DNA from: Anaerolineae bacterium
GTDB taxonomy: Bacteria; Chloroflexota; Anaerolineae; 4572-78; J111
Assembly: GCA_023151115.1 (NCBI GenBank)
Contig: JAKLJP010000084.1
Coordinates: forward strand, 1 to 18,749
Length of the DNA: 18,749 nucleotides
Reading direction: 5' to 3'
Shown here: piece by piece, positions 2,817-18,656 of the stretch
Position numbering within the stretch: position 1 is the first letter of the stretch
How the letters are laid out: the number at the start of each line of letters is the position of its first letter
Translations under genes and position numbers: made by a program
The notes under the pieces: model-generated
What the model was told of the DNA's origin: nothing
The model's input: the letters and a program-made list of their open reading frames with translations, nothing else
Database searches by the model: none

Positions 2817-4565
2817 CTATTCATCCAGCAGGTATACCGGCTCCTGGTAATAGCGAATCTTATTTTTATCCAGTTTATCCAGCAGTAGTTGGTGCAGCCA
2901 TTCGTTCTTTTCGCTCAAGGATTGGTCAGATTTTAAGTGGCGCAGTTCGGCGTTGAGGCGGAGCACCCGGCCCGGAATGATGAAGCGGGTAATGCCGGCG
3001 GGCAGCACATGGCCCATCTGGGCAATCTGTAGAACCTGATCCACCGTAAATTCGGGAAACACCACCAGCGCGGTTAAATCGGGATATTCATGGTGCAGGC
3101 TCAGCACATCGCCGTTGAGGGTGCGCGTTACCGGGAAAGCCTTGATGTAAGCTTCGGTTAGCTGGTTCAAAGCATCGAGGCGATTAGCCCCTTGCTTTTG
3201 TTGGATGAGAAACAGTTTGCCTTCGATGGTTTGCAGGTGGCATAAACCGCCAAATTCGACCATCTCATCCAGCACCTTATCTTTGCTGGTTTCCACCAAC
3301 GAGATGGTGGGCAGGGTCTTGAGCAACTTGATCAGGTCGGCCGGCTTGGCCTGGCGAATGGCGTGCAGCCAGGTTCGCAGGCCCAACTGCTCTTTGGCAG
3401 CGGCTATTTGGACCACAATGTGGGGATAATCCAACGCTTTGAGGGCCGCCGCGCGGGTCGCCCCGTCGAGCACCACGTAACGATCCCCGGCCTGAGCCAC
3501 GACCGGCGGGTTCGACAGTCGGCCCTCGACCTCGAAGCGGCGGACCAGTTTTTCTACCCGGCGCTGGTCCACCTGCTCGTGGGGAAAAACTTTGTCCAGC
3601 GGGACCACCTGCAAGCCGAGCAAACTCTCACTGCGAACCTCGCGGATCAACGCGATGATTTTTTCGGCGACGGTAATGGAGGCTGCTCGCTGGGCGTCCT
3701 CGGTGCTGGCGGCAATGTGGGGGGTGGCAATGACCCGTTCGTGCTGGGCCAGGGCGTTATTAATGGCCGGCTCTTCGGCAAACACGTCCAGCGCGGCCCC
3801 GGCCAGCCGGTCTTCGTTCAAAGCCGCCAACAGCGCCGCTTCGTCCACCACCGTGCCGCGGGCGGTGTTGATCAGATAAGCCGTCGGCTTCATCACCGCC
3901 AACTGCTCGGCCCCAATGAGGTTTTTGGTTTCAGCTTTGGAGGGCACGTGCAGGGTGACAAAATCGGCCTTTTTGAGCAGTTCCAACAGGTCCATGGATT
4001 CAACCCCGGCCTCCAAATTCAACTCCGGGGTGGGCCGGCGCTGGTTGACGATGACCTTCATACCAAAGGCCTGGGCGCGGGCGGCCACCTCACGGCCAAT
4101 CCGGCCAAAGCCAATAATGCCCAGGGTTTTGCCGGCCAGGCCGGTGCCCATAAATTTACTCTTTTCCCACTGGCCTTTTTTCAGGCTCAAATCGGCCCGG
4201 GGCAAGCCGCGGGCCAGGGCCAGCAGCAGGGCCATGGTATGCTCGGCCACAGCCAGGGTATTGGCGTCGGGGCAGTTGACCACTTTGATTTCGCGGTTTT
4301 GGGCGGCTACCACATCTATGTTATCCAGCCCCGCCCCCGCCCGGCCGATCACCTTCAACCGCAGCCCGTGCTCGATCACCTCCGCCGTAATCTTGGTGGC
4401 GCTGCGCGTGACCACGGCCTCGTAGTCGCCAATCACCGCCAGCAGCTCGTCTAATTTTAGACCTGTTTTTACCTCAACATCAGCATGCTCGCGCAGCATC
4501 TCGATGCCCACCTCGGCAATCGAATCACAGATCAAGACCCGGGGACGCCGGCTTTCAGACTTCAT
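2817..4565 (-). CDS. serA: D-3-phosphoglycerate dehydrogenase fused to a SerK/SbnI-like (ParB-fold) domain
   Basis: This 582-residue protein has two parts. Residues 1-315 form a complete D-2-hydroxyacid dehydrogenase of the phosphoglycerate dehydrogenase type (first step of serine synthesis). It has GRAGAGLDNID (74-84), the dinucleotide loop GFGRIG (152-157) and the catalytic Arg236 (NTARG), Glu265 (AEEP) and His283 (TPHIA). Residues about 318-582 replace the usual ACT/ASB regulatory part with a ParB/sulfiredoxin-fold domain like archaeal serine kinase SerK and staphylococcal SbnI. It has PHEQVDQRRV with E330 and VVLDGATR with D367, spaced 37 residues apart, close to the catalytic Glu/Asp spacing I recall for SerK. 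The usual acidic residue after the second dinucleotide-fold strand is replaced by N174-Q175-R176-R177, suggesting NADP. AAGGAGG precedes the ATG. The kinase activity is inferred and the domain could instead be a serine sensor. Confidence 0.9.
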   Translation of the reverse strand: MKSESRRPRVLICDSIAEVGIEMLREHADVEVKTGLKLDELLAVIGDYEAVVTRSATKITAEVIEHGLRLKVIGRAGAGLDNIDVVAAQNREIKVVNCPDANTLAVAEHTMALLLALARGLPRADLSLKKGQWEKSKFMGTGLAGKTLGIIGFGRIGREVAARAQAFGMKVIVNQRRPTPELNLEAGVESMDLLELLKKADFVTLHVPSKAETKNLIGAEQLAVMKPTAYLINTARGTVVDEAALLAALNEDRLAGAALDVFAEEPAINNALAQHERVIATPHIAASTEDAQRAASITVAEKIIALIREVRSESLLGLQVVPLDKVFPHEQVDQRRVEKLVRRFEVEGRLSNPPVVAQAGDRYVVLDGATRAAALKALDYPHIVVQIAAAKEQLGLRTWLHAIRQAKPADLIKLLKTLPTISLVETSKDKVLDEMVEFGGLCHLQTIEGKLFLIQQKQGANRLDALNQLTEAYIKAFPVTRTLNGDVLSLHHEYPDLTALVVFPEFTVDQVLQIAQMGHVLPAGITRFIIPGRVLRLNAELRHLKSDQSLSEKNEWLHQLLLDKLDKNKIRYYQEPVYLLDE

Positions 4566-4763: not shown

Positions 4764-4821
4764 GAGCAGAATTTTCGGAATAAAAGAATAAAGATTCCAA
4801 AATTCTGTAGATTCTGCTCTA
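4764..4821 (-). terminator. Long hairpin terminating the selenoprotein gene
   Basis: CAGAATTTTCGGAAT (4767-4781) pairs with ATTCCAAAATTCTG (4794-4807), 14 bp with one bulged C around a 12-nt AT-rich loop. An alternative register pairs AGAGCAGAAT with ATTCTGCTCT and reaches into the UAG stop codon at 4819-4821. On the minus strand it directly follows the selenoprotein stop and is trailed by CTCTTTATCTT. No gene was found in the remaining 4566-4763. Confidence 0.6.
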
Positions 4822-5424
4822 ACCCACATCCCACAGAATCGCCGCTAGCAACCGTTCCTCACTCACGCGCCCTTGCACAGCGTGGGTCTCATTCAACACA
4901 ATATGAGGCGTACTCATGACCTTATAGTGTTGAGCCAGTTCGGTCATCACTACGGCGGAGACAGCCTCGGCCTTGATTTGAGGAGTTTCAAAGGCGAACT
5001 TGTGAGCCAGGCTGACCGCCTGGGCGCAGTGGGGTCAGGTGGGGGTGGTAAAGATTTCCAGCTTCAGCGGCGTATGCAACTGCGCCAGCGCTTGCCGTGT
5101 TTGAGGCAGCAGCCCTGAGTCTCCCCGCCCACTGACGATGATGGCCGAGACCAGAGCGGCCAATTCCAGGCCCAGCGGCGCGCCGACGAACACCAGCTCC
5201 CGCCCGCTGTGACTGCGGACTACCAGCCGGTCGGCGGGCGCATTTGCTTCGGCGGCCTGGGTGGTCACAGAGAGGTGTTTGGTCAAGGCCATCAGTTCGG
5301 ACAGGGCGGCCAGGGTATCCGGCTCCGGCTGCTCCAGGGCGAAATAGCTCACCGCCACCGGCTGCTTGATTTCCTTTAGTGCCTGCCGCAGCGCCTGTCC
5401 CCGATAGATTTTCAGAATTGACAT
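4819..5424 (-). CDS. Selenoprotein: stand-alone AhpF N-terminal-domain-like disulfide reductase with UxxC
   Basis: Reading through an in-frame UGA at 5037-5035 gives a 201-residue protein with Sec at 130 in TTPT-U-PHC, the place of the first Cys of a CxxC redox motif. The frame stays open for 71 more codons to UAG. Residues about 1-115 form a degenerate thioredoxin fold (ALRQALKEIKQPVAV; RELVFVGAPLGLELAALVSA) and residues about 120-201 an active one (LEIFTTPTUPHC; VMSTPHIVL with the cis-Pro; VQGRVSEERLL). This is the double fold of the AhpF N-terminal domain and glutaredoxin-like PDOs: E. coli AhpF has CHNC, SPLG and GQGRM at matching places. No FAD/NAD domain follows. A bSECIS-like hairpin lies just past the UGA. 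The ATG at 5424 has no clear ribosome site, and TTG at 5439 is an alternative. Gene callers would stop at the UGA and lose the active site. Confidence 0.9.
5005..5037 (-). promoter_or_regulatory. Bacterial SECIS element directing Sec insertion at UGA
   Basis: On the minus strand, UGA (5037-5035) is followed after 11 nt by CCAGGC-GGTCA-GCCTGG, a perfect 6-bp stem (5023-5018 and 5012-5007) with a 5-nt loop. The loop begins with GGUC, 18 nt past the UGA. Bacterial SECIS hairpins sit immediately 3' of the UGA and present a G-rich apical loop to SelB; the E. coli fdhF loop also contains GGUC at a similar distance. The element lies wholly within coding sequence, as expected in bacteria. Confidence 0.82.
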
Positions 5425-5439
5425 TGTTTTGGATGCCAA

Positions 5440-5530
5440 GCTAATAAAGCAAAATGCCCGGCCTCAAAGGTATCGCCGCAATGAGGGAGCCGGGCATCGT
5501 AATCAGTCAGGATTAAAAAATTTGTATAAT
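5440..5530 (-). promoter_or_regulatory. Leader hairpin with U-rich tail upstream of the selenoprotein gene
   Basis: ATGCCCGGC (5454-5462) pairs perfectly with GCCGGGCAT (5489-5497), with an inner CTCA/TGAG pairing. On the minus strand the stem is followed by TTTTGCTTTATT, as in an intrinsic terminator, and ends about 25 nt before the selenoprotein ATG. A weak -10 (TATACA, 5528-5523) lies upstream of it, so the hairpin could be an attenuator in that gene's leader. It could equally be the terminator of the dpp genes that end at 5719. Confidence 0.5.
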
Positions 5531-5718: not shown

Positions 5719-6663
5719 TCAGCGACGGTTGAGGCGCGGATTGAGCGCATCCTGGAGGCCGTCGCCGAGCAAATTAAAGCCCAAGACCACCAGGGCAATA
5801 GCCACGCCGGGGATGAAGACCAGGTGCGGGGCGGTAAAAATCTGGTTGCGCTCGGCGCTGACCATCAAGCCCCATTCGGGGGTGGGCGGCTGCGCGCCTA
5901 AGCCCAGAAACGAGAGCGCGGCCACCTCGACAATGGCCGTGCCAATGCCCAGCGTTCCCTGGACAATCAACGGGGTGATCGAGTTGGGCAAGATATCCCG
6001 GAACAAAATGCGGGGCGGGGGCACACCCAGGGCGCGGTCGGCCAGGATAAAATCCTGCTCTTTGACCGACAGCACGCTGGAACGAATTACCCGCGCATAG
6101 GCCGGAATGGTCACAATGCCAATAGCAATCAGGGCATTAATCAGGCCCGGCCCCAGCACCGTCACAATGGCAATCGCCAGAATCAAAGCCGGAAAGGCCA
6201 GCAGTACGTCCATCAGGCGCATAATCACGTTATCCAGCCAGCCGCCCACAAAGCCGGCCACCGCGCCCAGCAGCGTGCCGACGACAATGGCAAATGTCAC
6301 CGAGGCAAAGCCGACTTGCAGCGACAGCCGCGACCCATAAACCACCCGGCTGAAAAAATCTCGAAAGTTGGCATCTACGCCAAAGATGTGTTGGGGCCGG
6401 TCGGTGGAACAGCCCAGCAGGTGAATACAGGGGGCAGAGCGTTTTTTGATGCCTGGTTCAATCCCAATCAACTGTTGTTCAGGGTCATAGGGGGCAATCA
6501 GCGGGGCAAAGACAGCAATCAGGGTCAGGGCCAGCAAAATGAGCATCCCCACAACCGCCGAGCGTTTTTGTAGCAGATGGCGAATGGCATCTCGATAGAG
6601 ACTGGTGGGTTCTTTGGTTCTAACAATCGGCGGGACGGTCAAAGGGATTGACTCGGCGGCCAT
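5719..6663 (-). CDS. dppC: ABC transporter permease, DppC/OppC family
   Basis: This 314-residue inner-membrane permease belongs to the dipeptide/oligopeptide/nickel class. A short cytoplasmic N-terminus precedes the first membrane helix (SAVVGMLILLALTLIAVFAPLIAPYDP, about residues 33-60). A periplasmic segment with a pair of cysteines (APCIHLLGC) and HIFGVDANFRDFFSRVVYG follows. Then come the core BPD_transp_1 helices with the EAA-type loop (RALGVPPPRILFRDILPNSITPL region) and ALSFLGLGAQPPTPEWG, a signature of DppC proteins. It ends in LGDGLQDALNPR, also typical. GAGGA lies about 8 nt upstream of the ATG. It is 43 bp downstream of dppB in the same orientation, so the two should form the heterodimeric channel. 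No ATPase or substrate-binding protein is in the window, so the substrate is unknown. Confidence 0.9.
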   Translation of the reverse strand: MAAESIPLTVPPIVRTKEPTSLYRDAIRHLLQKRSAVVGMLILLALTLIAVFAPLIAPYDPEQQLIGIEPGIKKRSAPCIHLLGCSTDRPQHIFGVDANFRDFFSRVVYGSRLSLQVGFASVTFAIVVGTLLGAVAGFVGGWLDNVIMRLMDVLLAFPALILAIAIVTVLGPGLINALIAIGIVTIPAYARVIRSSVLSVKEQDFILADRALGVPPPRILFRDILPNSITPLIVQGTLGIGTAIVEVAALSFLGLGAQPPTPEWGLMVSAERNQIFTAPHLVFIPGVAIALVVLGFNLLGDGLQDALNPRLNRR

Positions 6664-6706
6664 GATAATTATTCCTCTCTTTTGATAGGGACGTCCTACC
6701 GACGGC

Positions 6707-7789
6707 TCAACTCAAACGAATACGCGGGTCAAGAAAAGCGTAAGAAATATCAACAATCAAATTGATGACTACAAAACCAACTGCCACAATCAAGGTAACG
6801 CCTTGCACAATAATATAATCACGGGCGGTAATAGCCTCAAAGAGGGTGCGGCCCAGACCGGCCAGGTTAAAAATAGTCTCGGTCAGCACCGCCCCGCTGA
6901 GCAAAGAGCCTAATTGCAGGCCCAAAATTGTGACCACCGGCAGCATGGCATTGCTCAAGCCATGCCCAAAGACCACCCCCATTTCGGCCAGCCCCTTGGC
7001 CCGGGCGGTACGGATGTAATCGAGGCTTAAAACTTCGAGTAAACTGGAACGGGTGATGCGGGCCACAATGGCCAGGGGAATAGTGCCAACGGCGATAGCC
7101 GGCAAAAGCATGTGTTTAAAGGCGTCGCCCAAAGCAGTCCAGTTGCCGGTCAGCAGCGCATTGATAAAGTTAAGATTGGCAATTAAGCTAAAAAAGAAAA
7201 ACCCGGCTGATTCGGGTGATAGGTCCCAGCCCCAAACCTCGAAAAAGGGAGGGTTGGTCACCCCGGAGGTTAACCGGCCCGATGGTGGCAGTTGCAGAAA
7301 AGAGTCTTTTAAAACAAGGGCAAAGACATATTGTAGCAGCAAGCCCAACACAAAAATGGGCAGCGAAACGCCGATGTTAGCCCCCACCATGACCAGCACA
7401 TCAACGGTTGAATTGTGCCAGTAAGCCGAAATAACACCGAATAAAATGCCGAGAATAGTGGCAAAAATCATGGCCGCCAGGGCCAGTTCAATGGTTACCG
7501 GCAGGCGCTCGACGATAATTTCGCTCACCGGGCGGCCAAAGCGGAAAGACACGCCCAAATCATGCTCGATGACAATTTGTTTGAAATAGATCCAAAATTG
7601 CCAGAGGATGGGTTGGTCCAGGCCATTTCGTCTTATAAATTCGTCACAAATTATATCGGTCGCTCGTTCGCCCAGCACGGCGCGGCAGGGGTCGCCGGGA
7701 AGCTTACGGGCTAGGGCAAAGGTGACAAATAAAATTCCAACCAGCACGGGGACAGCCAGCGTCACCCGGCGAGCAATATATTGAAACAT
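6707..7789 (-). CDS. dppB: ABC transporter permease, DppB/OppB family
   Basis: This 360-residue partner permease starts with the characteristic MFQYIARRVTLAVPVLVGILFVTF, an N-terminal membrane helix after a short basic segment. ARKLPGDPCRAVLGERAT is the periplasmic segment seen in DppB proteins. The BPD_transp_1 core follows, with the EAA-like loop YIRTARAKGLAEMGVVFGHGLSNAMLPVVT and LLSGAVLTETIFNLAGLGRTLFEAITARDY. The C-terminus has SYAFLDPRIRLS, typical of the family. A long extracytoplasmic insertion with an FFFFSL run lies around residues 165-220. GGAGGA sits 5 nt upstream of the ATG. The gene begins its transcription unit and is divergent from the btaAB region across about 270 bp. Whether the Pho-box-like array in that gap also affects dppBC is unknown. 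Confidence 0.9.
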   Translation of the reverse strand: MFQYIARRVTLAVPVLVGILFVTFALARKLPGDPCRAVLGERATDIICDEFIRRNGLDQPILWQFWIYFKQIVIEHDLGVSFRFGRPVSEIIVERLPVTIELALAAMIFATILGILFGVISAYWHNSTVDVLVMVGANIGVSLPIFVLGLLLQYVFALVLKDSFLQLPPSGRLTSGVTNPPFFEVWGWDLSPESAGFFFFSLIANLNFINALLTGNWTALGDAFKHMLLPAIAVGTIPLAIVARITRSSLLEVLSLDYIRTARAKGLAEMGVVFGHGLSNAMLPVVTILGLQLGSLLSGAVLTETIFNLAGLGRTLFEAITARDYIIVQGVTLIVAVGFVVINLIVDISYAFLDPRIRLS

Positions 7790-7960
7790 CCAAATCCTCC
7801 CCTTCTCCGATGAAGTAGGCGGAATTTTACCTCACATGGTAAATGACAATATGGGTACCTCGTCATCCTAACAGCCCACTTTAGCCTCAGATGATAACCC
7901 AAACTAACCGAAATGGCAAAAGGCTGGCGTTAAAGGTCAAGTTTTATCAGCCAGAAATGG

Positions 7961-8035
7961 TTAAATAAGATTTACCGAAGATTAACCGGCCCTTAACCCA
8001 ACCTTAAATACCTCTTAACCTCCACCTTTTAGACT
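7961..8035 (+). promoter_or_regulatory. Pho-box-like array: TTAACC repeats at 11-bp spacing, with -10
   Basis: TTTACC (7971), TTAACC (7982), TTAACC (7993), TTAAAT (8004) and TTAACC (8015) recur at exactly 11-bp intervals, and a further TTAAAT lies at 7961, 10 bp before the first. The candidate -10 TAGACT (8030-8035) starts 10 bp after the last unit. This layout, 11-bp direct repeats substituting for the -35, is that of PhoB/PhoP/SphR operators; the cyanobacterial Pho box has CTTAACCT units with 3-bp spacers. The array points toward the betaine lipid genes. The match is by pattern only, and no PhoR/PhoB genes are in the window. Confidence 0.7.
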
Positions 8036-10666: not shown

Positions 10667-12508
10667 CTACTCCACGGTGACACTTTTCGCCAGATTCCTG
10701 GGCTGATCCACGTCGGCCCCGCGCCAAATGGCGGTGTGGTAGGCCAGCAATTGCAATGGGATGACCGATAGAATGGGCGTTAGCAGCGGATGAGCGGCGG
10801 GGATTTTCAGCACATGGTCGGCTTTGGCCGCTACCTCGTCATCGCCCTCGTTGATCAGGGCAATCACAATGCCTTTGCGGGCGCGCACTTGCTCAATCTG
10901 GCTGATCATCTTATCGTAGACGTGGTCCTGGGTGGCAATGCAGACCACCGGCATATTGTCATCAATCAGGGCAATCGGACCGTGCTTCATCTCGCCGGCC
11001 GGGTAGCCTTCGGCGTGGATATAGCTGATCTCCTTCAGCTTCAGCGCCCCTTCCAGGGCAATGGGGTAGTTCAGCCCCCGGCCCAAAAACAGAAAGTGCT
11101 CACAGTGCTGGTACAGCTTGGCCAGAGTGTGGTAGTCATTGTACCCTTCGGCCAGAATTTCGCCGGCCAGTTCGGGTAGGTGGGCCAGGGCGGTGGCCAG
11201 GGCAAAGCTCTCTTCCGCTCCCAGCACCCCCCGCTGCTGGCCCAGATACATGCCCAGCAAAAACAGATCGGTCAGGGTGGCGGTAAAGGCTTTGGTGCTG
11301 GCCACGCCAATCTCCGGCCCGGCTTGCATCAAAATGACGCCGTCGCTCATACGGTGGGCCATGCTGCCGTGGGCGTTTACAATGCTCCACAGCCTGGCCC
11401 CCTTACGCTGGCCTTCCTCCATCGAGGCCAGGGTGTCGGCAGTTTCACCGGATTGGGTAATGGCCAGCACCACCGTTTTGTCGTCCAGCAGCGGGTCGCG
11501 GTAGCGAAACTCTGAGGCGTAATCTACCGAGACGTGAACCTGGGCCAGCTTTTCAAGCATAAATTTACCCACCTGCCCGGCATAGGCCGAGGTGCCGCAG
11601 GCGACAATAATGATCCGCTCGATAGCTTTGGCCTCAGCCGGCGTCAGCGACAGGTGTTCCAGGTGGACCCGGCCGCTGGTAAAATCAATCCGCCCGCGGA
11701 TGGTGCTCTGGATAGATTGGGGCTGCTCGTAAATCTCTTTCTGCATAAAGTGGCGGTACTGGCCTTTAACCGCGCTGATAGGGTCCCAGGTGATCTGGTG
11801 GGTTTCTTTGTGCAGCGGCTGGCCGTCGAGCCGGTAAAAGTTGACCTGCCCGGCCGTAATTACCGCCATCTCTTTATCTTCCAGGTAAACCACCCGCTGG
11901 GTGTGGTCCAGAATGGCCGGAATGTCGGAGGCCAGGTAGTTTTCGTCCTGACCCAGGCCGACAATCACCCCGCCGGCATTGCCCAGGCGCACAGTCACAA
12001 TCTTATCCGGCTCCTGCTTGCTGACCACCGCAATAGCGTGCGCTCCGTGCAGTTGGCGAAAAGCGCGGCGGCAGGCCTCCACCAGGCCGTCGCCCTGGGC
12101 CAGGTATTTATCAATCAGGTGGGTAATCACTTCCGTATCGGTATCGGAAACAAAGGTGTGGCCCTCCTGCTGCAACTGGACGCGCAGGGCCATAAAATTT
12201 TCAACAATGCCGTTTTGCACAACAGCAATCACCCGGGACTCATCGGCGTGCGGGTGGGCATTGCGTTCAATCGGCGCGCCGTGGGTGGCCCAGCGGGTAT
12301 GGCCGATGGCCAGATGACCGTCCAGCGGCGCTTCTCGCAGCCGATTTTCCAGGTTAACCAGTTTGCCTTCGGCCCGGCGAATGGCCAGGTCGCCGTTTAC
12401 TGCCGCAATCCCGGCCGAGTCATAGCCGCGATATTCCAGCTTTTTCAGCCCTTCCAAAACGATGCGCGACGCATCCTTGCTGCCTACATAGCCGACGATA
12501 CCACACAT
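10667..12508 (-). CDS. glmS: Glutamine-fructose-6-phosphate aminotransferase (isomerizing), GlmS
   Basis: This 613-residue enzyme, close to the usual ~610, makes glucosamine-6-phosphate from fructose-6-phosphate and glutamine for cell wall precursors. The N-terminal glutaminase domain begins MCGIVGYVG, with Cys2 as nucleophile after Met removal, and includes GHTRWATHG and the NGIVENF segment. Two SIS (sugar isomerase) domains follow, with ACGTSAYAG, AITQSGETADT, ASTKAFTA and the AEGYPAGEMKHGPIAL segment. The C-terminus PRNLAKSVTVE is canonical. AAAGGAAC lies about 11 nt before the ATG. The gene is preceded by an unusually long leader of several hundred nt containing a glmS ribozyme on the same strand, so expression should fall when the product accumulates. 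Confidence 0.97.
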   Translation of the reverse strand: MCGIVGYVGSKDASRIVLEGLKKLEYRGYDSAGIAAVNGDLAIRRAEGKLVNLENRLREAPLDGHLAIGHTRWATHGAPIERNAHPHADESRVIAVVQNGIVENFMALRVQLQQEGHTFVSDTDTEVITHLIDKYLAQGDGLVEACRRAFRQLHGAHAIAVVSKQEPDKIVTVRLGNAGGVIVGLGQDENYLASDIPAILDHTQRVVYLEDKEMAVITAGQVNFYRLDGQPLHKETHQITWDPISAVKGQYRHFMQKEIYEQPQSIQSTIRGRIDFTSGRVHLEHLSLTPAEAKAIERIIIVACGTSAYAGQVGKFMLEKLAQVHVSVDYASEFRYRDPLLDDKTVVLAITQSGETADTLASMEEGQRKGARLWSIVNAHGSMAHRMSDGVILMQAGPEIGVASTKAFTATLTDLFLLGMYLGQQRGVLGAEESFALATALAHLPELAGEILAEGYNDYHTLAKLYQHCEHFLFLGRGLNYPIALEGALKLKEISYIHAEGYPAGEMKHGPIALIDDNMPVVCIATQDHVYDKMISQIEQVRARKGIVIALINEGDDEVAAKADHVLKIPAAHPLLTPILSVIPLQLLAYHTAIWRGADVDQPRNLAKSVTVE

Positions 12509-12886: not shown

Positions 12887-12899
12887 TTTAAATAGACCA

Positions 12900-13066
12900 C
12901 TGCCTTCTCTTTTGGGCCGCCGATTACTCCGCGGGTTTGTGAAAAGGCTTTAGTGTGTCCCCGGGGTTGGGGACTGGGCGGGCTGTGGCATCCCGGCAGG
13001 TCATCCGCCGATAATCTCGATAAACCTGCTCCTCGTCACCCGGCTATTGCCGGGTCAGGCGCTATT
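12900..13066 (-). ncRNA. glmS self-cleaving ribozyme/riboswitch
   Basis: Reading the minus strand from 13066: AATA then GCGCC, the conserved cleavage context, with the scissile bond expected between A at 13063 and G at 13062. A hairpin CCCGGC-aata-GCCGGG follows, then GACGAGGAG (13037-13029) and the core TTTATCGAGATTATCGGCGG and GATG, nearly identical to Bacillus glmS ribozymes. A P3-like arm has the apex GTCCCC/GGGGAC (12957-12962 and 12969-12974). P4 is formed by GAAAAGG (12941-12947) and CCTTCTC (12903-12909), with the purine-rich AAAAGAGAAGG as 3' end. In the family, glucosamine-6-phosphate acts as catalytic cofactor, and cleavage leads to mRNA decay. It lies upstream of glmS on the same strand. 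Confidence 0.95.
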
Positions 13067-13126
13067 AACCCCGTCAGCTCCTTTCGTTAGATTTCGCTCA
13101 AATATCACCCTATTATCATCTTAAGA

Positions 13127-18460: not shown

Positions 18461-18656
18461 CTGTCCCTGCTGTTCTCGTGATGCTCCACGCGTCTTGAGC
18501 CAACAGTACCTTGATTGGGAGCTTTTGTTTTAGAGGGGATGCGGTAGCCTTCGCCAAGGCAAGGCAACACCTTCTATCCGAGCACCCCCCTGCTTATTTA
18601 ATGAGCAGGTTCAAGGACAAATGGAATGCACACGGCTCGGCGGGGCGCTCTTTTTT
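18461..18656 (+). ncRNA. ssrS: Probable 6S RNA
   Basis: A transcript of about 190-195 nt, the usual 6S size, would fold into one long interrupted rod. The closing stem is CCCTGCTG (18465-18472) with CGGCGGGG (18638-18645). Then come CGTG/CACG, TGC/GCA and TCCA/TGGA, then CTTGAGCC (18494-18501) with GGTTCAAG (18608-18615). A large central bubble follows, with a small hairpin CCTGCT/AGCAGG on its 3' side, and an apical stem TAGAGGG/CCTTCTA topped by GCCTT-cgcc-AAGGC. This open-promoter mimic, a central bubble in a long duplex, is the signature of 6S RNA, which binds sigma70-RNA polymerase. The closing stem is followed by CGCTC and six Ts (18651-18656) as terminator. It has its own promoter. No SRP RNA, tmRNA or RNase P motif was found. 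Confidence 0.72.

Follow-up and report, generated by a model that had tools for sequence, protein, structure and literature searches.

The question raised by this locus is whether a UGA codon that interrupts a reading frame ends the protein or encodes a residue of its active site. The locus lies in a stretch of 18,749 nucleotides (nt) from an Anaerolineae bacterium (contig JAKLJP010000084.1 of assembly GCA_023151115.1), which we refer to in full as the window, and the interrupted gene occupies positions 4819 to 5424. An earlier note on this DNA gave these coordinates exactly, leaving the minus strand unsaid, and took the gene for a selenocysteine (Sec) form of the AhpF N-terminal domain encoded as a stand-alone protein. 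It is highly likely that UGA codon 130 is read as selenocysteine in a stand-alone redox protein with a single active site, although Sec insertion itself is something we infer. The features involved are the following.

4819..5424, minus strand: whole predicted selenoprotein gene, with ATG at 5424, UGA as codon 130 and the TAG stop at 4821-4819; 201 residues with UGA counted as Sec
5035..5037, minus strand: in-frame UGA, predicted Sec codon, residue 130 and first of UPHC; aligns with Cys in the database protein P0001 and in oxidoreductases with two active sites
5026..5028, minus strand: codon of Cys133, partner residue in the predicted selenenylsulfide pair and the sole Cys of the protein
5119..5424, minus strand: first thioredoxin fold, vestigial, residues about 1-102; it lacks both CxxC and the cis-Pro loop that the two-site relatives have (alignment and structure model)
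4822..5118, minus strand: second thioredoxin fold, residues about 103-201, with UPHC and an STP motif taken as the cis-Pro loop (Pfam Thioredoxin_3, 5.3e-14, and structure model)
5007..5023, minus strand: predicted bacterial Sec insertion sequence (bSECIS) hairpin CCAGGC-GGUCA-GCCUGG, with 6 base pairs (bp), a 5-nt loop starting GG, and 17 nt from UGA to loop

The 201-codon frame is interrupted by this one UGA, and homologues have CPxC at the position of the UPHC motif (residues 130-133). Translation confirmed every landmark that had been reported, namely the in-frame UGA at FTTPT-U-PHC, the 71 codons that follow it, STPHI and VQGRVSEERLL, while the plus strand across the same interval is interrupted by stops. 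Pfam Thioredoxin_3 covers residues 121-197, and a structure model built with Sec in place of the UGA gives a confident double thioredoxin fold. The protein ends at the TAG after 201 residues with no flavoprotein module in the same chain; what stands of the selenoenzyme claim is a predicted selenoprotein that is stand-alone and has no attached flavoprotein. A consensus scan for a promoter and a terminator at the locus listed none.

The same UGA is present at all five DNA loci compared, which come from separate assemblies (the window, L001, L002, L010 and L011). The proteins that share it, from L001, L002 (H5_CFX7) and the genomes G271 and G145, are 91, 75, 61 and 55% identical to the window protein. 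L001 belongs to the metagenome-assembled genome Anaerolineales bacterium H5_CFX5, the closest named genome found, whose DNA is 89-95% identical to the window in aligned blocks; the gene itself likely comes from the Anaerolineales. A protein database search returned 65 proteins, of which P0001-P0053 were counted as the one-site subfamily (n = 53). Fifty-one of these stop one residue before the UGA position (45 at FTTPT, 4 at FTTPI and 2 at FTAPT); that UGA is their next codon is a deduction, because the entries came as protein sequences. The remaining two have Cys (P0001) and Trp (P0006) at this position. The database form of the gene product is 128-129 residues long, just as the earlier note expected of automatic annotation, and this annotation fault leaves 51 of the 53 database members without their active site.

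The sequence after the UGA is under purifying selection. There the nonsynonymous (dN) and synonymous (dS) rates are 0.043 and 0.247 for the window and L001, 0.186 and 0.971 for the window and L002, and 0.186 and 1.131 for L001 and L002, giving dN/dS ratios of about 0.16-0.19 in these three close pairs. The remaining pairs either are saturated or, with L011, have a dN of 0.5. Checking this region in close homologues had been suggested along with the prediction, and it proved to be conserved. The catalytic Cys of homologues aligns with the in-frame UGA and coding sequence is conserved downstream of it, a combination used to recognise bacterial selenoproteins.

The published model of the bacterial SECIS has a G at loop position 1 or 2, a loop of 3-9 nt and a stem of 4-16 bp, 16-37 nt from the UGA (PMC13188914, 2026 review), and the window hairpin, with its GGUCA loop, 6 bp and 17 nt, falls within these bounds. 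We compared Anaerolineae relatives that carry UGA with those that carry Cys. With the loop at exactly the same offset, a stem of 5 or more pairs occurs in 28 of 40 distinct UGA sequences vs 3 of 28 Cys sequences, the latter including one unrelated glutaredoxin. The narrow motif used to draw the first set excluded 10 of the 33 additional UGA loci and 2 of the 5 Cys loci; in the counts of 40 and 28 the excluded loci are restored except L076, in whose place a neighbouring glutaredoxin was read, and L022 stands outside both. In 2000 synonymous resamplings of the first 31 UGA sequences, a stem at the fixed offset appeared in 5.3 sequences on average and in 13 at most; 21 were observed. The stems differ in sequence between UGA relatives yet still pair, and the loop length ranges from 3 to 6 nt.

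Searching for the Sec genes was another check proposed for this locus, and in the close relatives it came out largely as hoped. The genomes of L001 and L002 (G001 and G002) both have selA, a UGA-bearing selD and tRNA-Sec, and G002 also has selB over the cut-off and with it all four of selA, selB, selC and selD, so that selB is intact in one of the two. The best tRNA-Sec sites score 69.7 and 67.5 bits in G001 and G002 against an Rfam cut-off of 47. Sites above that cut-off occur in 5 of 14 control genomes too, and each genome has a second one, at 47.5 bits. Across the order, selA is over its cut-off in 22 of 25 genomes, including all four that carry the one-site form (in G145 and G271 the test covered selA only). 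In G001 the selB-like pieces are spread over several frames in L046 (C4:30000-40000), alongside selA, selD and tRNA-Sec; this fragmentation may be an assembly error or real damage.

Several points weigh against the Sec reading and have to be set beside two other explanations of the UGA. On its own the window hairpin is unremarkable by folding energy (z -0.03) and marginal against synonymous resampling (p 0.087). It is weaker in L010 (p 0.43) and in L011 (p 0.25), where there are only 2 pairs, at offset 20, and no hairpin at the shared offset. The loose published SECIS model is satisfied by all 40 UGA sequences but also by 16 of the 28 Cys sequences, so a fit to it is not specific, and the SECIS control statistics, these as well as those for the fixed offset, ignore the relatedness of the sequences. 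The Sec machinery is shown in the genomes of relatives only, and in G001 no selB is over the cut-off, the selB-like pieces being in different frames. The same job could be done by an intact two-site Cys paralogue that is present in G001 and in G002. Among the neighbouring genes read there is neither a reductase nor a peroxiredoxin, so the partners of the protein are a guess. Finally, in 8 of 10 pairs amino-acid changes are more numerous in the 62 codons after the UGA than in the 66 codons preceding it (6 vs 0 between the window and L001, 16 vs 11 between the window and L002).

This faster-changing tail, the short product listed in databases and the broken selB of G001, in draft genomes that may hold frame errors, would suit a UGA that is a true stop in a decaying pseudogene, or a sequencing error, with the downstream frame as a remnant. 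Such an explanation is extremely improbable: the codon recurs at five of five loci from separate assemblies, dN is well under dS after it in the three close pairs, and the same residue is the last one in 51 of 53 clusters. The pseudogene reading is largely refuted by the conserved downstream part. We give just as little credence to the idea that readthrough or a changed code puts Trp, or some other ordinary residue, at the UGA. The Trp of P0006 points that way, although a genuine TGG codon, or a gene call under a different code, may lie behind it. Of the 17 window frames examined, 4 have UGA as their ordinary stop, which means that the in-frame UGA is not due to a changed genetic code; UGA also ends the L002 gene itself, and P0001 and the two-site relatives have Cys at this position.

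To which family does the protein belong? The protein disulfide oxidoreductases of Pyrococcus, Aquifex and Aeropyrum have two CxxC sites, where the window protein has one. The nearest solved structures to the model carry the name of this group, whose members from Pyrococcus (1a8l, 1j08), Aquifex (2ayt) and Aeropyrum (2hls) have Cys at the second site, where the window protein has Sec. The NCBIfam model TIGR02187, 'PDO_seleno_TRX', gives the window protein 144.3 bits, below its cut-off of 185, and the two are homologous over residues 10-197; the AhpF model TIGR03140 gives 62 bits, against a whole-protein cut-off of 502.9. The earlier identification with the AhpF N-terminal domain holds for the double-fold type, but in sequence the protein is nearer to TIGR02187. 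Five other one-site members behave similarly, with 120.5-139.6 bits for TIGR02187 and at most 63 for AhpF, and all five of the two-site Anaerolineae proteins scanned are over the TIGR02187 cut-off, at 237-295 bits. In a two-site comparison set (n = 54) the first fold keeps CxxC in 53 proteins, the exception beginning at a contig end, and the second fold has CPxC or UPxC in all 54. In the subfamily none of the 53 proteins has a CxxC within the first 120 residues, and in the alignment the first-fold cis-Pro loop of the two-site relatives is missing.

Profile matches at E 1e-6 or better occur in at least 227 of 396 genomes of a class sample. The one-site form, assigned by a gap in E-value from 7e-76 to 8.5e-39, occurs in at least 4 of the 396 class genomes, in 4 of 25 genomes of the order and in at least 1 of 400 genomes of a phylum sample (this being G001, the centre genome); in the class and phylum samples at most 8 candidates were scored per genome, so a copy may have been missed. 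The third match in a contig search was L003, from Aminobacter, with 27% identity over residues 103-191. Among viral contigs 13 stretches fit the search pattern, none of them encoding a relative. As a separate observation, the disulfide oxidoreductase at L022 is a two-site Cys form, and about 700 bases behind it on the plus strand lies a small glutaredoxin-like frame with FTTPTUPHC (UGA), which by eye resembles the Uxx-star type.

In a tree of 68 rows, which left out the UGA and Cys loci excluded from the first SECIS set, the subfamily is monophyletic (support 100/100) and sits on a long stem; the bootstrap was not fully settled. A starred branch (95/81) joins it to the two-site proteins of the Anaerolineae. 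On this tree 7 changes between Sec and Cys are required, and starred branches force at least 5 of them. Judging from the tree, Sec and Cys forms have been exchanged several times in the wider family within the Anaerolineae, and this repeated exchange makes the group well suited for asking why Sec takes the place of Cys at one site. A single Sec clade was rejected on the tree (p-AU, from the approximately unbiased test, 1.3e-7).

The wider family has been met before. A 2006 paper lists a family of bacterial selenoproteins under the name 'Homolog of AhpF, amino-terminal domain', with members in Carboxydothermus and Symbiobacterium (PMC1794560). In extracts from later papers TIGR02187 with UxxC is listed as a selenoprotein family (PMC9312934), placed under 'predicted with high confidence' (PMC13188914) and reported also from Asgard archaea (PMC11227280). 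As far as these extracts describe it, the listed family shares with the window protein a double thioredoxin fold with Sec as the first residue of UxxC in the second fold. The window protein differs in lacking the first-fold CxxC and cis-Pro loop and in scoring below the cut-off, the published members being compared by description. Among the papers that our searches listed, titles and the opening lines of abstracts describe no family member from Anaerolineae or Chloroflexi and no Sec protein disulfide oxidoreductase, and look-ups of terms for the one-site Anaerolineae clade in two papers gave no occurrence. The suggestion that the family may be overlooked applies to the one-site subfamily, which we did not find described, and not to the wider family, already listed in PMC1794560. 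Since the broader family with such selenoproteins is already listed, the window protein likely represents a new branch and not a new kind. The new part is likely the separate Anaerolineae one-site clade, below the TIGR02187 cut-off and with the first-fold CxxC lost, which adds a distinct branch beside a selenoprotein family that these excerpts list as predicted. The evidence that Sec and Cys were exchanged repeatedly in the wider family is new as well.

In the mechanism that we propose, the second fold would move electrons through a selenenylsulfide/selenolthiol pair made of Sec130 and Cys133, and the hairpin just after the UGA would aid the reading of codon 130 as Sec. The first fold, having lost its CxxC, would act only as a scaffold or docking surface, as in the AhpF N-terminal domain. 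Electrons would pass from NAD(P)H through a separate thioredoxin-reductase-like flavoprotein to the window protein, and from there to peroxiredoxins or other disulfide substrates. We infer the direction of catalysis and the partners, and propose the protein as a shuttle that probably serves peroxiredoxins. None of the four carrier genomes has a full AhpF over the cut-off. Strong matches to the flavoprotein part occur in G001, G002 and G145, with weak ones in G271, and one G001 flavoprotein is a thioredoxin-disulfide reductase over its own cut-off. A Sec-peroxiredoxin, with UGA in the active-site motif, is present in all four (L093, L094, L095 and L096, one per genome, matches at 1501-1881, with UGA in TSGUT or TGGUT). 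These components could make up a split, selenium-based counterpart of AhpF/AhpC in the Anaerolineae, with a one-site seleno-shuttle, a free-standing thioredoxin reductase, a Sec-peroxiredoxin and the first fold used for docking only. We regard this full arrangement as rather unlikely; if true, it would place selenium on both sides of the electron transfer. Two further genes were observed in the carriers. L100, in G271, holds another UGA-bearing peroxiredoxin followed by an in-frame glutaredoxin-like part, and L088 1249-2487, in G001, encodes a thioredoxin-reductase-like flavoprotein whose N-terminal part matches mycoredoxin and glutaredoxin models just below the cut-off.

Two other accounts accept the selenoprotein and differ on its origin or its work. 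The protein carries its one site in the second fold, its first fold is silent and no flavoprotein is attached to it, which is the layout of a detached AhpF N-terminal domain. A double thioredoxin fold in which only the second fold has an active site is also what it shares with AhpF (4o5q, 1zyn, 5h29). It could accordingly have descended from an AhpF gene that lost its flavoprotein, and not from protein disulfide oxidoreductases; on the tree, a clade of the subfamily with E. coli AhpF was not rejected (p 0.253). The window protein differs from AhpF, however, in being unfused to a flavoprotein, in having Sec for Cys and in its weak sequence match, and the bit scores of all six members favour TIGR02187 (144 vs 62 for the window protein, 120-140 vs at most 63 for the others). 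The grouping with Anaerolineae two-site proteins (95/81), with E. coli AhpF on a branch of length 8.06, points the same way, and we find this descent improbable. A selenoprotein could also act as a protein disulfide isomerase or oxidase, or in metal or selenium handling, instead of as a peroxiredoxin reductant. The name of the nearest solved structures fits such a role, as does the position of the gene behind peptide/nickel-type permeases at four of five loci, and an adjacent peroxidase gene was not seen. The loss of the first active site, which leaves an electron-shuttle layout like that of the AhpF N-terminal domain, speaks against it, as do the separate flavoproteins (strong in three of four carriers) and Sec-peroxiredoxins (four of four). 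An isomerase or metal-handling role is in our view somewhat unlikely, and we retain the electron shuttle as the probable function.

The gene is flanked in the window by the following.

5719..7789, minus strand: two peptide/nickel-type ATP-binding cassette (ABC) transporter permeases, directly upstream of the gene
2817..4565, minus strand: phosphoglycerate-dehydrogenase-like gene (residues 9-316), downstream of the gene

The same permease pair precedes the gene in L001, L002 and L043 (genome G145), which with the window makes the four of five loci. The permease family search covered the window pair and one L043 gene, those of L001 and L002 being assigned by similarity. In G145 only 7 nt separate the permease stop from the start codon of the gene. 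A strong hairpin, AUGCCCGGC...GCCGGGCAU, followed by a U-rich run, lies between permeases and gene at 5453-5498 on the minus strand of the window (z -3.0) and at 7930-7979 on the plus strand of L002 (z -3.7), ending 28 and 21 nt ahead of the start codon. It may mark the end of the permease operon or act as an attenuator; none was found in the folded L001 stretch, and the consensus terminator scan did not list it.

The dehydrogenase-like gene is also downstream in L001 and in L042 (genome G271). The C-terminal part of its product matches models of SbnI (O-phosphoserine synthase) and the serine kinase SerK below the cut-off, so the protein is possibly a fusion that makes O-phosphoserine. Elsewhere in the window there is a glmS ribozyme/riboswitch at 12892-13074 on the minus strand (80 bits), upstream of a frame at 10667-12508, also minus, that is glmS-like by eye, and a 6S RNA at 18461-18650 on the plus strand (60.5 bits).
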